DNA of 23,231 bases from Gemmatimonadota bacterium (GTDB lineage Bacteria; Latescibacterota; UBA2968; UBA8231), in the NCBI GenBank assembly GCA_002712305.1, contig PATE01000107.1, positions 1-23,231 of the forward strand, given 5' to 3'. A model generated the notes under the pieces. It was not told the origin of the DNA and ran no database searches. It saw only the letters and a list, made by a program, of their open reading frames with translations. Shown one piece after another: positions 17,756-23,128 of the stretch. The translations under genes and the position numbers were made by a program. Numbering within the stretch: the first letter of the stretch is position 1; every line of letters begins with the position of its first letter.

Positions 17756-18157
17756 TCAGAAGGCGGTGAACACCTTGGTTGTACCGTCGTCCCCCTTCAC
17801 GCAGCATTTCGAGCAGCTGTGGAATCACCTTGTCCGGCTGATGCACCGAGTCGATCACGGCCCAAGCCTGGCCGCAAAACGTGCTTCGCCGCATCGTCGT
17901 AGATGGCTCCCAGATCACTGGGCTGCAGCAACTCCACCGGTACATCGCCTGCCTGGGTCTTCTCGGCGCCTTCAAAGGTCAATGGATTGGCAGCCAGCTC
18001 AGCGTGGAGTTTCTCTTCAGAAGCCGTATGGCCTTCGTTGACCAAGTCTGTAGCGAACTCCCGACTCGCCAACGTCCTCTATCGCAACGTCCAAGGACCT
18101 ATCGGCGTCGATCTCATCCCAAACGTGCAACGCTGGCAAAACAGATAAAAGGAGGCG
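17756..18157 (-). pseudogene. Remnant of a protein-coding gene with three frame changes (possible peptidase-MA-like C-terminus)
   Basis: This is the only stretch over 300 bases without an intact gene. Four overlapping pieces on the minus strand read as one protein. Piece A begins after the permease stop (ALHVWDEIDADRSLDVAIED); piece B has EFATDLVNEGHTASEEKLHA and GDVPVELLQPSDLGAIYDD; piece C has GQAWAVIDSVHQPDKVIPQL; piece D is DDGTTKVFTAF, ending in TGA at 17756-17758. The joins fall at short runs: CCC 18060-18062, AAAA 17876-17879 and CCCCC 17791-17795 (plus-strand letters). Each would be repaired by removing one base. The layout (a VPxxxL turn, a QAWAVIDSV helix, LLEMLREG) resembles the end of peptidase-MA/gluzincin domains, but this is tentative. 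No good start codon or ribosome site is visible, so the 5' part may be lost. Confidence 0.5.
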
Positions 18158-19564
18158 CTACTGAACGTCGTACCGAAGAAACGAGAGCCACGCCCCCATG
18201 AAGAAAATCACATTCCAGAGCACCAGGAGAAGGATGTCCGGATAGACAGACGTCAATCTCTCGCTTGCTGGCATGTAGGAGAATTCAAACTGCGGCGCAT
18301 CACTCAGATCTATGTCGTTGAACTGCTCCATCAACTCCGGTGTCATGCGACCCCGATTCTCCTCCATGACACGACGGAAGTCCGCCTGCTTCTCCTCTGC
18401 GTAGACGCCCCACTTCTCTGAGAACGCCTGTAGTGCCTCAACATACCGCTGTTCCTGCGTAATCCCTGAGGCCGCCAGATCGAGGCTGGCAAGGGTGAAG
18501 GAGGTCATGGGCGAGACACGCGCGATGATCGCAGACCAGCGCATCTGATGTCGCACACGAGCGGTCTGGCTGTCGGAGACCTTCTGCATTTCCGCCTCCA
18601 TCTCCTGACGCATATCATCGAAGCGCTGGCGCAGGGCCTCATCGAACACATCGTCGCGTCCCTGCTTCTCCTGCTCCTCGCGGAAGATCTTCTGGGAACG
18701 CTCACTCCATTCCTGCTGAATCGCCTGTTTCTCGCGCCGCATGCTCTCCTGGGATGGGATGGGCAGAACCTGCGAAACCGCATAGGGCGCCATGTTGGGC
18801 AGGGCGAGCACGAAAGCCACCCACAACAACAGCAGAACGGTGATCGACGTCGATGCGAGTCTCGTTCGACTGCTGACGAAGATTCCTAAGGAGAAGATCG
18901 CTGCCAGATAGAGCAGGGCGAGCACGAACAGCGCCAGCAGAGACAGTGTGCCGTCCATGTCGGGCTCGACCTCTGGAAACAGCAACAGCAGAAGCATCGA
19001 GAGCAAAAAGGACACGGTGAAGGGCGCGACCAACGCCAGGTAGCCACCGATCCACTTCCCGAGCAGCACCGTATCTCGCGGCACGCTGTACGACAGGAGC
19101 AGCTTGATCACCCCCGATTCGGCTTCACCAGACACGGCGTCGTATCCGAAGGCCAACGCCAGCAGCGAAACGATCACGCCGACGATGAAGACGAAGTCCA
19201 CCGCCGGAAACAGGGGCAAAACAGGGTTTCCTTCCCAGGTCTCGGGAAAGTCCAGACGATTGCCGGGTTGGATCTTCACGCTCTCCGTCAGTTCCTGGGA
19301 CAGTCCCCGGACCATCGTATTCATCAGATTCAGGGGTCGATCGACGGTCATCCCCTCATTGACGGACCGGATCTGCGTTCGCTGCTCCAATTCGTTGCGG
19401 TGCATGACACGATTCATGTTGTACGTCGACAGTGCCTCACGATAGTCGCGCGTGAGTACAGCCGAACTCAACAGCATCACCAACAGACACACGGCACAGG
19501 CGATGGCAAAGCGCAGTGAGCGCAGCTGGTCGAGAAGCTCTTTTCGAACGATGTGCAGCAGCAT
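18158..19564 (-). CDS. ABC-2 type transporter permease subunit (paralogue 2)
   Basis: A 468-residue membrane protein, the second of two paralogous permeases. Predicted membrane segments are about 18-37, 121-141, 168-196, 205-229, 238-256 and 441-462. A long extracytoplasmic loop follows the first helix (38-118), and a charged, probably coiled-coil region spans about 272-335. The cytoplasmic SYSVPRDTVLLGKWIGGYL segment (158-176) is nearly the same as in the other permease (SNSVPRDTVLLGKWVGGYL), and both end in FLRYDV plus one residue. This is a NosY/GldF-like exporter type with large inserted domains. It starts 22 bases after the first permease and should work with it and the ATPase at 22406. 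The substrate is unknown. Confidence 0.87.
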   Translation of the reverse strand: MLLHIVRKELLDQLRSLRFAIACAVCLLVMLLSSAVLTRDYREALSTYNMNRVMHRNELEQRTQIRSVNEGMTVDRPLNLMNTMVRGLSQELTESVKIQPGNRLDFPETWEGNPVLPLFPAVDFVFIVGVIVSLLALAFGYDAVSGEAESGVIKLLLSYSVPRDTVLLGKWIGGYLALVAPFTVSFLLSMLLLLLFPEVEPDMDGTLSLLALFVLALLYLAAIFSLGIFVSSRTRLASTSITVLLLLWVAFVLALPNMAPYAVSQVLPIPSQESMRREKQAIQQEWSERSQKIFREEQEKQGRDDVFDEALRQRFDDMRQEMEAEMQKVSDSQTARVRHQMRWSAIIARVSPMTSFTLASLDLAASGITQEQRYVEALQAFSEKWGVYAEEKQADFRRVMEENRGRMTPELMEQFNDIDLSDAPQFEFSYMPASERLTSVYPDILLLVLWNVIFFMGAWLSFLRYDVQ

Positions 19565-19586
19565 GAGTACCCTGATCTGTCAGGCG

Positions 19587-20978
19587 CTAGGTGACGTCAT
19601 AGCGCAGGAAAAACGCGAAGGAGAGCATGAAGAAGAGCACGGCGAACACCACGAGAAGGAGGATGTCGAACATGGCCGCATCAATGGCGGCCCGCGTCGC
19701 CTCCGAATACATCTGAAACCGAGGAATCGAGTCGGGATCGAACCAGTCCTTGTCCTTGACCTGAGGACCTGTGCGCGTGAATTCGACATTCCCCGACCGA
19801 AACAGGTCATCACGCCAGTCGTTCTGGGCTTCCTGGAATCGATCGTGAGCGTCGCGGAAACGATCGAAGAGAATGGGGCCCGTACCTGCCAGGCGTGTGA
19901 CGGCAAATAGATAACTCGCCGACGGGGAGAGCCGTGCCAGTCCCTGGCTGAAGGAGACCTGTCGGGTCATTCGGTCATTGTAGAATTGATCGAGCTTGCG
20001 ACGCTTACGTTCAGCATCCTGCTGGATGCGTTCGCTCTCCTCCTGATCGCCATACACCTTGCGCTTTCGAATCGACTCCTGCAGCAGCTGTGCTTCGCGA
20101 TCGATGGCCTGCTGTTCTGCGTCTATGACCTGGCGCGATGGAACGGGCGCCACCAGTCGAGCGGTGATCGGCGCGAGATTGGGAACCACGAGAATCCACA
20201 CGATCCACACCAGCAAGGAGAGTAACAGTGCCGTGGATCCTCTGTGAGTGGCAGTGGAGATAAACAAGCCAAGGCTGAAGAAGACAGCGATATACAACAG
20301 AGATATCAGTGAGATCGCGGCAAAACGGATCACGTCGTCCGGCTGCAACTGCATGGCCCCCGACAGAGACAGATAGACGAAGCCTCCCACGACAGCCACC
20401 GCAAAGGGAGCCGAAATCGAAAGGTATCCACCTACCCATTTGCCCAGCAGCACAGTGTCGCGCGGCACCGAGTTGGAGAGCAGGACTTTCAATGTGCCGC
20501 GCTCTTTCTCACCGCAGATGGAATCGAAGACAAACAGCAAGGCCAGTAGACTCAGGACTATGTTGACCACATAGGCAAAATCCGGCGTCTGAAACACATC
20601 GAAGAGAACGTTGCGACCTAAGCGATCGTCACTGGAACGGGTGACGAAGCGATTTCGTGAAGACACCTGCGTAGGGAGGCTGCCCTCAAGACCCCGAGCC
20701 AGAACCGACAGGGGGCGCGGCGCCCTGGCACCTGGCAGATCGGCCTGGATCACCTTCTGGAATTGCTCATTCGCGTCAGGTGTATTCGTGATCTCGTCGA
20801 GTTTGGTGTTGAGTTGCCCCTCGGCACGGATGTACTCGTCGACTTTCGTCCGATGCTGCGAGCCCATGAGAAACATGGACACCACCACCAGGATGAAGAG
20901 CAACGCGTAGGTCACGGCGAAGCGGAAACTGAGGACGTTGTGCAGGACCTCTTTGCGGATAATTCTCAGCAACAGCAT
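19587..20978 (-). CDS. ABC-2 type transporter permease subunit (paralogue 1)
   Basis: A 463-residue membrane protein. The start is placed at ATG 20978 (MLLLRIIRKEV), which aligns with the start of paralogue 2 (MLLHIVRKEL). The frame is open 18 codons further up, but those overlap the lipoprotein gene. Membrane segments are about 20-38, 134-152, 181-205, 217-240, 247-268 and 434-456. A loop of about 95 residues follows the first helix, and a charged coiled-coil-like stretch rich in Q, E, K and R lies at 285-335. FDSICGEKERGTLKVLLSNS (151-170) is the cytoplasmic coupling region typical of ABC-2 exporters. The gap to the lipoprotein stop is 7 bases. Tandem duplication of this gene likely produced paralogue 2, giving a heterodimeric channel. 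Confidence 0.87.
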   Translation of the reverse strand: MLLLRIIRKEVLHNVLSFRFAVTYALLFILVVVSMFLMGSQHRTKVDEYIRAEGQLNTKLDEITNTPDANEQFQKVIQADLPGARAPRPLSVLARGLEGSLPTQVSSRNRFVTRSSDDRLGRNVLFDVFQTPDFAYVVNIVLSLLALLFVFDSICGEKERGTLKVLLSNSVPRDTVLLGKWVGGYLSISAPFAVAVVGGFVYLSLSGAMQLQPDDVIRFAAISLISLLYIAVFFSLGLFISTATHRGSTALLLSLLVWIVWILVVPNLAPITARLVAPVPSRQVIDAEQQAIDREAQLLQESIRKRKVYGDQEESERIQQDAERKRRKLDQFYNDRMTRQVSFSQGLARLSPSASYLFAVTRLAGTGPILFDRFRDAHDRFQEAQNDWRDDLFRSGNVEFTRTGPQVKDKDWFDPDSIPRFQMYSEATRAAIDAAMFDILLLVVFAVLFFMLSFAFFLRYDVT

Positions 20979-20985
20979 CGTCCAC

Positions 20986-22391
20986 TCACTGGAAAAGGAG
21001 GACCCCGAAATCGTCGGGACTGTGGCCACCACTGTAGGTACGAACCCACTGGTTGTATTCCTGACCGCGGTAGACGCGGATCAGATTGAACCCCCAGACG
21101 GTTCCAGGTGTCGGCGAAGGAATGTTGGTGTCGTCAAAATCGATTCGGTACTCGAGAGCCCAATGATCTGAGCCGATGTGAGTTGCGAGGTCGCCACTTT
21201 CGAACATCTCTTGTCGCGAACGCGCAATCCACTCGTCCACACGGACGCCAAGATTGTTGATGCCAATGTGAGCGTAGGAGCTGTGATTGAAATTCGTGTC
21301 GATAAACAGTTCAATAATGTCATCGGTCCAGATACTCTCATCCCCTACAGGACCACCTTCGTACTGGTCGGCGTCCTCCTGTTCCTCGAGTGTAATCTTG
21401 GCCACCAGATTCTCAGGTTCAGCATCTTCTCCGTAGAAACCGATCCACAGCGACTCGGCAGTCCGGCCAATGAAAAAGTGAGATCGGTGCTCGGAGGAGG
21501 TGGCCGCTGTATGCCCAAAGAAAAACTGGTAAGCCCCATGCGGCCCGGGCCGCATGGCGCCAGGCCTTGTCGTCGAGTCGCCCATCCAGGTATGGTTCGT
21601 CAGGTAGCAGAGGCACATCCAACAATAGACCGTGTGCTCGTAGCGTGTCGAGCCCGCGCTGGGGGTTGTCGTTTTCGTAGATGAAACGCCCAGCTGGTAG
21701 TGTGCCCGCTGACTGGTCGGGTCGATGACCAGAGCATCGGCGTAGATCGACTCCGCCTCGGAAAGCCTCGACTCGAGGGTGGCCTGGCGCGCCTTGGTCA
21801 GCACTTCATCGACCTGCGACGCCACGCGAATCATGGCCTCGTTTCGCACGGCAATGTCGTCGTCATGGAGCAGGAGACGAGCGAGAGAATCGACGACGGC
21901 TTCCTGCTCGGGCCCGAGTCTGCCGGAAAAACTGTCGACGGCGATGATCGCCTCAAGGCGCACCTTTGCATCAGTGTCGCCAAGTGCCGTGATCACGGCG
22001 TCGAGAAGCTGGGTCCGTCGATGCATACCGGCGAGCCGGATGAGCCGGCCTCGCAGGGTGGCATCGGAGTCCTGCGCCAGCAGACGAGTGCAGGGCGGAA
22101 CCGATGCGCTCGTCGTCAACACGCATCATCAGACTGACGAGAATCTCCACGAGGGCCGCCCTCGCCTCGGCTACGCTGTGGATCGGCAAGGGCCTGTAAC
22201 AGGGGCTCCACAGCGCGTTCCTTTGCCAGCAGCAACTCCTGCGTGGCTGCTTCGTGCTCTTCCACGGTGCCAGACAGGTCGTCGATCAGGTCATCCGGCC
22301 CCTGAGCACATCCGGAAATCCCGACGCCGAAAGAGACGACGAGAATGACGACGCTTGAACATCTGAGCAAGTTGTGGCGGGGGGAGATCAT
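20986..22391 (-). pseudogene. Frameshifted lipoprotein gene with HEAT/TPR-like region and C-terminal CBM9-like domain
   Basis: ATG 22391 begins a lipoprotein signal (lipobox ISGC, Cys28) 14 bases after the ATPase gene. The intact product would have about 467 residues, but the frame changes near 22180 (LLQALAD to HSVAEARAALVEIL), 22090 (to RLLAQDSDATLRG), 21688 (HYQLG to FIYENDNPQRGLDTLR) and 21535 (AWRHAARA to AYQFFFGH). The N-terminal half has HEAT-like repeats (LLDAVITALGDTDAKVRLEA) and a TPR-like helix pair (YADALVIDPTSQRAHYQLG). The C-terminal half has YLDGRLDDKAW, GRTAESLWIGFYGED and WTDDIIELFIDT, the pattern of CBM9/DOMON-like sugar-binding beta-sandwiches. It stops 7 bases before the permease. 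It probably served as an extracytoplasmic partner of the exporter. Sequence error remains possible. Confidence 0.7.
21536..21557. repeat. 22-bp perfect GC-rich palindrome
   Basis: Each half is CCATGCGGCCC followed directly by its reverse complement with no loop; the next bases outward no longer pair. It lies inside the broken lipoprotein gene, next to the GGGG run where the fourth frame change occurs. It could extrude as a hairpin and promote small deletions or polymerase errors. Confidence 0.8.
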
Positions 22392-22405
22392 CCCCGGCTC
22401 CGGAG

Positions 22406-23128
22406 TCAGGCGGCCTGTTCGGCTGGTTGACTCACGTATTCGACGTAGATTTTCTCGAGGTCTTCCTGCTCGAGTTCGTCGCTGGAGAAGATGCGTACGA
22501 GATTACCTTCCACCATGATGCCCACGCGATCGGCGATCTGTTTGGCGCGGAAGATGTCGTGCGTCGTCATCCAGATCGCCTTGTTCTCTTCTCGCAGCTC
22601 GGCCAGCAGTTGGAGAAACTCGGCGCCACTCTTGGGATCGAGTCCGGATGTGGGTTCGTCCAAGAGAATGACCTCGGCATTCTTCATGATCGCGATGGCG
22701 ATCCCCAGCTTCTGCCGCATGCCTTTGGAAAATCCCTTCACGCGACGGTCGAAGGCATCTTGCTGTAGGCCCACGCGGCCCATCACCTCGCGATACTCGT
22801 CGTCGCTCACGTCCTTACGGCCACCGAGTTTGGTGAAGAATTCGAGATTCTGCCGGGCCGTGAAGTTGCCGTAGAGCATGACATTCTCAGACACGTAGGC
22901 AACGTGCTTCTTTGCCTCGAGGGGGTCCTTGGTCACATCGATCCCGCAGATCTTCACGGTCCCTGCTGTCGGTTCCGTAAAGCCAAGGGAGACCATCAAG
23001 GTCGTCGTCTTTCCCGCTCCGTTGGCACCCAACATGGTGAAGATCTCCCCCGGCTCGATGGTCAGAGATAGGTCGTTGACGGCGTGAACGTCGCCATAGT
23101 GCTTGGAAAGGCCGATGATCTCGAGCAT
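22406..23128 (-). CDS. ABC transporter ATP-binding protein (ABC-2 exporter, GldA/NosF-like)
   Basis: A 240-residue cytoplasmic ATPase that drives the two permeases encoded downstream. Motifs in order: Walker A GANGAGKTTT (34-43), a Q-loop region with SEN in AYVSENVMLYGNFTARQNL (the usual Gln is not evident), signature FSKGMRQKLG (in place of LSGGQ, normal for this subfamily), Walker B VILLDEPTSGLDP and the H-loop TTHD. The ATG at 23128 has AAAGGA 8 bases upstream, and no other gene precedes it within 103 bases. It is therefore probably the first gene of the operon ATPase > lipoprotein > permease 1 > permease 2. The transported substrate is unknown. Confidence 0.94.
   Translation of the reverse strand: MLEIIGLSKHYGDVHAVNDLSLTIEPGEIFTMLGANGAGKTTTLMVSLGFTEPTAGTVKICGIDVTKDPLEAKKHVAYVSENVMLYGNFTARQNLEFFTKLGGRKDVSDDEYREVMGRVGLQQDAFDRRVKGFSKGMRQKLGIAIAIMKNAEVILLDEPTSGLDPKSGAEFLQLLAELREENKAIWMTTHDIFRAKQIADRVGIMVEGNLVRIFSSDELEQEDLEKIYVEYVSQPAEQAA

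Follow-up and report, generated by a model that had tools for sequence, protein, structure and literature searches.

To act on NosZ, NosDFY relies on an extracytoplasmic partner, and we know of no TolC-family channel or adaptor-like protein that belongs to it. Its NosFY part (PDB 7o12, 7o0y, 7znq) has a separate, single-domain ATPase. In tripartite efflux systems such as MacAB-TolC, YbhGFSR and the H. pylori system (PMC9570263), the ATPase, the inner-membrane subunits, an adaptor-like protein and a TolC-family channel are encoded together. Previous studies also reported that the ATPases MsmK, MceG and FhuC are each common to several importers (PMC4519317, PMC9947336, PMC10147376). In our study, a four-gene operon was examined in the window, i.e. 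the entire contig C107, which has 23,231 bases and belongs to a 4.77-Mb draft genome, probably a metagenome-assembled genome (MAG). The records of its relatives carry the name Candidatus Latescibacterota, a portion being labelled Gemmatimonadetes; the source draft and the related MAGs are fragmented. The operon encodes an ABC ATPase and a lipoprotein, together with two ABC-2 permeases that differ from each other (P2 and P1). We hold, with moderate confidence, that it supplies the inner-membrane core of a tripartite exporter of the ABC-2 type in the Latescibacterota, with a shared ATPase and an accessory lipoprotein. The parts (ABC ATPase, NosY-like permeases and CBM9 fold) are known and their arrangement is unusual; the system is classed here with the tripartite ABC-2 exporters and not with NosDFY or Gld.

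Gene order and the TolC-NEW3 neighbourhood

The four genes are closely spaced and co-directional on the minus strand (18158-23128). The ATPase of 240 amino acids (22406-23128; PF00005, 109 bits) is followed by the lipoprotein gene, which is spread over several frames (20986-22391), by the NosY-like permease P2 of 463 amino acids, the 'first' type (19587-20978; PF12679, 123 bits), and by its paralogue P1 of 468 amino acids, the 'second' type (18158-19564; PF12679, 113.5 bits). These positions and the sequence motifs had been given correctly by the initial annotation, and its proposal of an ABC-2 exporter operon was supported. The same gene order was found intact at locus L030 of the same-genus genome G020, where the ATPase, P2 and P1 are 97%, 88% and 90% identical to those of the window; G013 has this order too, the lipoprotein gene being a pseudogene there. 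An order restricted to this contig was thereby ruled out, and its recurrence exceeds chance.

At L030, the four genes are divergent from a TolC-family gene (PF02321, 112 bits), which is followed by two genes of NEW3-domain, adaptor-like proteins and a gene of a UVR-motif protein. The ATPase was found divergent from the same set in L050, L051, L052 and L054. In the window, the sequence ends 103 nucleotides upstream of the ATPase. Another contig of the same genome, C124, starts within the first adaptor-like gene (87.5% identity to L030), followed by the second adaptor-like gene (91%) and the UVR-motif protein (87%). Since C124 begins inside that first gene, the contig break lies between it and the ATPase, where the TolC gene would lie; the TolC and adaptor-like genes were out of reach of the initial annotation because they lie beyond the contig end. 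The NEW3 proteins are two paralogues, each containing the NEW3 domain, a C-terminal hydrophobic segment and, at the N-terminus, a hairpin whose match to the MexJ/MexA/ZneB adaptors is weak but specific (best E 1e-4). The arrangement of adaptor-like, TolC-family, ATPase and paired permease genes, or parts of it, was also present in records of Planctomycetota, Spartobacteria and other Latescibacterota, being partial at contig edges. The UVR-motif protein, of 260-300 amino acids, is conserved beside the TolC/NEW3 genes in many loci (for example L030:784-1698 and L126:3094-3882).

Because of these TolC-family and NEW3 neighbours, we infer a tripartite exporter. In the proposed single machine, a pair of ATPase subunits would bind and hydrolyse ATP and thereby drive a heterodimer of P2 and P1, the helical extracytoplasmic inserts of the permeases would dock on the two NEW3 proteins, and these would lead outwards to the TolC-family channel of the outer membrane. 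One ATPase, and probably one set of adaptors and TolC, would serve several alternative permease pairs per cell, with the permease pair setting the specificity for substrate or partner. The lipoprotein would probably be a periplasmic or outer-membrane part for docking or ligand sensing. If this is true, the locus adds a type of tripartite ABC-2 exporter whose heterodimer has the NosY fold, and a class of NEW3 adaptors not described before. It would differ from the known ABC-2 and MacB-type tripartite efflux systems in its NosY-like permeases and in its adaptor-like proteins, which consist of NEW3 and a C-terminal transmembrane (TM) segment, occur as two paralogues and are devoid of a classical HlyD/lipoyl domain.

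Several observations weigh against the tripartite exporter. No classical HlyD/lipoyl adaptor domain was found among the Pfam matches of the NEW3 proteins, and the hairpin match is weak. In genus g5, the genomes G014, G015, G017 and G018 contain the TolC-family gene and/or the adaptors and are devoid of this ATPase and these permeases; at their loci (L128, L130, L129 and L127, respectively) the NEW3 genes are kept, as is the TolC-family gene where the contig shows it. In G016 of the same genus (L134), the set is in decay. In G012, one set of adaptors precedes a MacB-type permease. At L132:8062-15176, the genes of the TolC-family channel and of two NEW3 proteins lead up to a MacB_PCD/FtsX permease, which takes the place of the ABC-2 core. 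The TolC/adaptor module is thus separable from the ATPase-permease core, as the g5 genomes keep the former without the latter, and these genomes together with the G012 arrangement indicate that it is not exclusive to this system. A literature search on DUF3526, or on NEW3 together with ABC-2 and TolC, found nothing relevant in the library consulted.

The NosY-like permease pair

Both permeases contain SVPRDTVLLGKW, terminate in FLRYDV and share 31% identity. A long insert lies between TM5 and TM6 of both, in the DUF3526 region of Pfam (PF12040), which scored 34.1 bits in P1 and 23.8 bits in P2 against a cut-off of 25. The large inserts of the initial annotation were thus confirmed. In the AlphaFold model of P2, with a predicted local distance difference test (pLDDT) score of 86.8, the insert is predicted to be helical and extracytoplasmic (helices 282-394). 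The P2 model matched NosY (7o12_E) with a Z of 27.0 and a root-mean-square deviation of 2.2 over 246/246 residues at 24% identity (VIA-align); this match spans the NosY chain and says little on the insert alone. As judged from the model, NosY is the nearest solved permease fold, and a separate single-domain ATPase is a further likeness to NosFY. In contrast to NosDFY with its pair of NosY subunits, the window encodes two unlike permeases, with a helical extracytoplasmic insert of >100 residues, and TolC and NEW3 adaptor-like genes belong to the locus of this system. The beta-helical partner NosD was not found to be encoded in the window operon, where the only extracytoplasmic protein is the HEAT/TPR/CBM9 lipoprotein.

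The fold of P2, a full NosY fold (Z 27), could also belong to a NosDFY-like mechanical machine, in which an ATP-driven movement of the permeases reshapes an extracytoplasmic partner (the lipoprotein or the adaptors) and so assembles or remodels an envelope component instead of exporting a substrate. The action of NosDFY on NosZ and the extracytoplasmic protein encoded next to the permease pair agree with such a machine. It is nevertheless improbable, as a TolC-family channel and adaptor-like genes, with which NosDFY to our knowledge dispenses, accompany the ATPase in most relatives, and the lipoprotein is dispensable and devoid of a NosD-type beta-helix.

The Gld systems are more distant. P2 scored 26.2 bits with the GldF model (TIGR03518; cut-off 288.5) and P1 did not match it, and the ATPase scored 157 bits with the GldA model (TIGR03522; cut-off 402.6). 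Tandem permeases with the DUF3526 region in the insert, together with an ATPase of 46-47% identity, were found in the Massilia/Duganella loci L117-L120, which, unlike the present system, adjoin genes of TonB-dependent receptors and not TolC/NEW3 genes.

From the shared motifs, the initial annotation had suggested that a tandem duplication gave rise to a heterodimer. In a tree of 114 permeases, the first-position and second-position genes formed separate clades across Latescibacterota, Planctomycetota and Verrucomicrobiota. The R173 and K180 residues of the shared motif, which likely sit in the coupling region, were conserved in 92-94% of the 114 permeases, including all pair types; the motif therefore marks the family. 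A recent tandem duplication of P1 and P2 was ruled out by the tree and by this family-wide conservation. The heterodimer was supported as probable, with P2 of the NosY fold type, and from the separation of the clades across phyla the P2/P1 pair is probably an old one. For annotators, short conserved motifs in ABC-2 permeases are to be taken as a family mark and not as a sign of recent duplication.

One ATPase and several permease pairs

Orthologues of the window ATPase, at 74-97% identity, were present in 13 of 25 family genomes, in which the next-best other ABC ATPases reached at most 38% identity, except for one paralogue of 54%. The numbers of permease pairs and cognate ATPases were 2/1 in G000, 3/1 in G007, 2/1 in G013, 6/1 in G020, 2/1 in G021, 8/2 in G022, 1/1 in G023 and 4/1 in G024, which gives these eight genomes ~28 permease pairs and 9 cognate ATPases in total. 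For most permease pairs, the neighbourhood examined was devoid of this type of ABC ATPase, and the adaptors usually occurred as one pair per genome. As the pairs outnumber the ATPases and mostly have none nearby, one ATPase probably serves several permease pairs, to judge from copy numbers and conservation. Against this stands the fragmentation of the MAGs: ATPases of the orphan pairs may have been missed, or these pairs may be energised by other ABC ATPases of the cell. The proposed sharing resembles that of MsmK, MceG and FhuC in that one ATPase would serve multiple membrane complexes; those systems are importers, whereas the sharing suggested here concerns an exporter-type system. If true, it extends ATPase sharing to the export side, the papers found having reported it for importers, and explains the many permease pairs without ATPases in these genomes.

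A wider proposal can be made only tentatively, namely a common chassis of one ATPase, an adaptor pair and a TolC channel with exchangeable heterodimeric permease pairs, in which a separate family of extracytoplasmic partners would go with every pair type. These would be the HEAT-TPR-CBM9 lipoproteins for P2/P1 and the 'QYGG' secreted proteins for the Px/Py permeases of G012-type genomes. The G012 cluster of ~60 kb (L062, L063, L064) was found to contain Px/Py permease genes interleaved with genes of secreted proteins of ~280 amino acids with the QYGG motif, which had no Pfam match. Similar sets were present in G008, G003 and G010; the observation also covers the loci L079-L084.

The HEAT-TPR-CBM9 lipoprotein

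The lipoprotein gene of the window encodes a signal peptide and a lipobox (GISGC), followed by HEAT, TPR and CBM9-like regions, as delimited by alignment to the intact L030 gene and to the family. The predicted structure of an intact relative (pLDDT 88.6), together with Pfam, contained a helical HEAT region at the N-terminus, a TPR-like part, and at the C-terminus a CBM9 fold. All 16 relatives matched HEAT_2 and 14 of them CBM9_1, and the lipobox cysteine was present in all 16 aligned relatives. In the fold search, the beta-sandwich of the model matched the CBM9 modules 7nwn (Z 21.6) and 1i82 (Z 21.0). The helical-repeat half and the carbohydrate-binding-like half described by the initial annotation are thus borne out, including the CBM9-like fold. 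As it had also stated, no described system with such a lipoprotein was found, and HEAT-TPR-CBM9 is a real domain combination that is apparently undescribed. From the known CBM9 modules it differs in being fused to HEAT/TPR and a lipobox and not to a glycanase.

The initial annotation had further guessed at the export or remodelling of a surface glycan or glycoprotein, with the CBM9-like domain as glycan binder. The sugar clamp of CBM9 consists of two tryptophans, Trp71 and Trp175 of the Thermotoga maritima module TmCBM9-2, and a CBM9 module without the clamp residues bound no natural carbohydrate tested (PMC8280721). In a profile alignment to TmCBM9-2, with residue numbers counted by hand, the Trp71 position was occupied by Trp in 13/16 relatives and the Glu77 position was invariably Glu, whereas the Trp175 position was mostly Gly/Ala/Leu/Thr, so that one of the two clamp positions is retained. 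Sugar binding is accordingly possible, as far as residue conservation goes, and is not indicated. A genuine CBM9 fold with the Trp71 and Glu77 positions kept would suit a glycan role, which we nevertheless regard as unsupported and very improbable in view of the lost clamp position, the non-binding clamp-less module and the neighbouring genes, among which no polysaccharide cluster was recognised.

Among 64 genomes of the phylum, the full-length lipoprotein was found in 9, all within this family, in ~22 copies; elsewhere, matches were confined to the CBM9-like domain, in other proteins. About 17 of the 22 copies do not adjoin permeases. Intact copies adjoin the P2-P1 pair in L030, L040, L041 and L044, the pseudogene of G013 (L053) lies exactly within the ATPase-P2 gap, and deletion remnants were found in L057 and L048, with a weak one in L056. 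A short open frame at L048:8584-9183 has the beginning of a P2-type permease and the end of a lipoprotein fused together, as though the central part of a P2-P1-lipoprotein unit had been deleted. An obligate subunit was ruled out by the absences, remnants and pseudogenes next to intact permeases. The lipoprotein is not a fixed partner and is taken here as a dispensable accessory to the P2/P1-type pair, often lost elsewhere and broken in the window.

It may be asked whether the lipoprotein is cargo or a mere neighbour, i.e. a surface family whose genes landed next to the permeases without being a working part of the transporter. The copies away from permeases, the frequent loss or breakage where the transporter persists, and one copy that follows a different ABC exporter pair would agree with this. 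Yet the adjacency occurs in two arrangements, the permease-linked copies occupy at least three places in the lipoprotein tree, and together with the remnants this is far above chance. A close P2 was present in 8/9 genomes with the full-length lipoprotein and in 0/16 without it, and the lipoprotein also follows the P2/P1 pair inside genera g3 and g7. This co-occurrence is confounded by phylogeny and limited by incomplete assemblies, which tells against a role in the exporter; even so, a mere neighbour or cargo appears rather doubtful to us, and an accessory is preferred. In the copy beside the other exporter (L034:3842-8699), the HEAT-CBM9 lipoprotein gene stands in line after two ABC exporter genes, the first of which matched ABC_membrane and ABC_tran.

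Compared with L030, the lipoprotein gene of the window contained single-base insertions or deletions near 22170, 22090, 21689 and 21543 and an in-frame deletion of 45 bp near 21189, which removed a tryptophan present in 15/16 relatives. The ratio of nonsynonymous to synonymous differences (pN/pS) was 0.23 across the in-frame blocks, which suggests that the gene was selected until recently. The ATPase and the permeases appear to be under strong purifying selection, with dN/dS (the ratio of nonsynonymous to synonymous rates) of ~0.014 for the ATPase, ~0.033 for P2 and ~0.044 for P1 against L030, dS being saturated. The four frameshifts could be assembly or sequencing errors in a gene that is intact in the cell, a point against an accessory that is broken here, and the low pN/pS and the fragmented draft, probably a MAG, would fit. 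This is unlikely, as the four changes lie within 1.4 kb, none within a long homopolymer, and no breaks are apparent in the ATPase, the permeases or the remaining long reading frames of the window; moreover, the 45-bp deletion took out a retained tryptophan, the adjoining gene is likewise a remnant and the corresponding gene of G013 is a pseudogene. These comparisons favour true decay over assembly error. The adjoining gene after P1 encodes a conserved protein of 908 amino acids without known family, which is intact in L030 and next to the system in other genomes. In the window, a tblastn search with the L030 protein found only a remnant (17759-18066, minus strand), with residues 686-775 in two frames (E 7e-32) and a weak match of residues 894-908, the remainder being absent.

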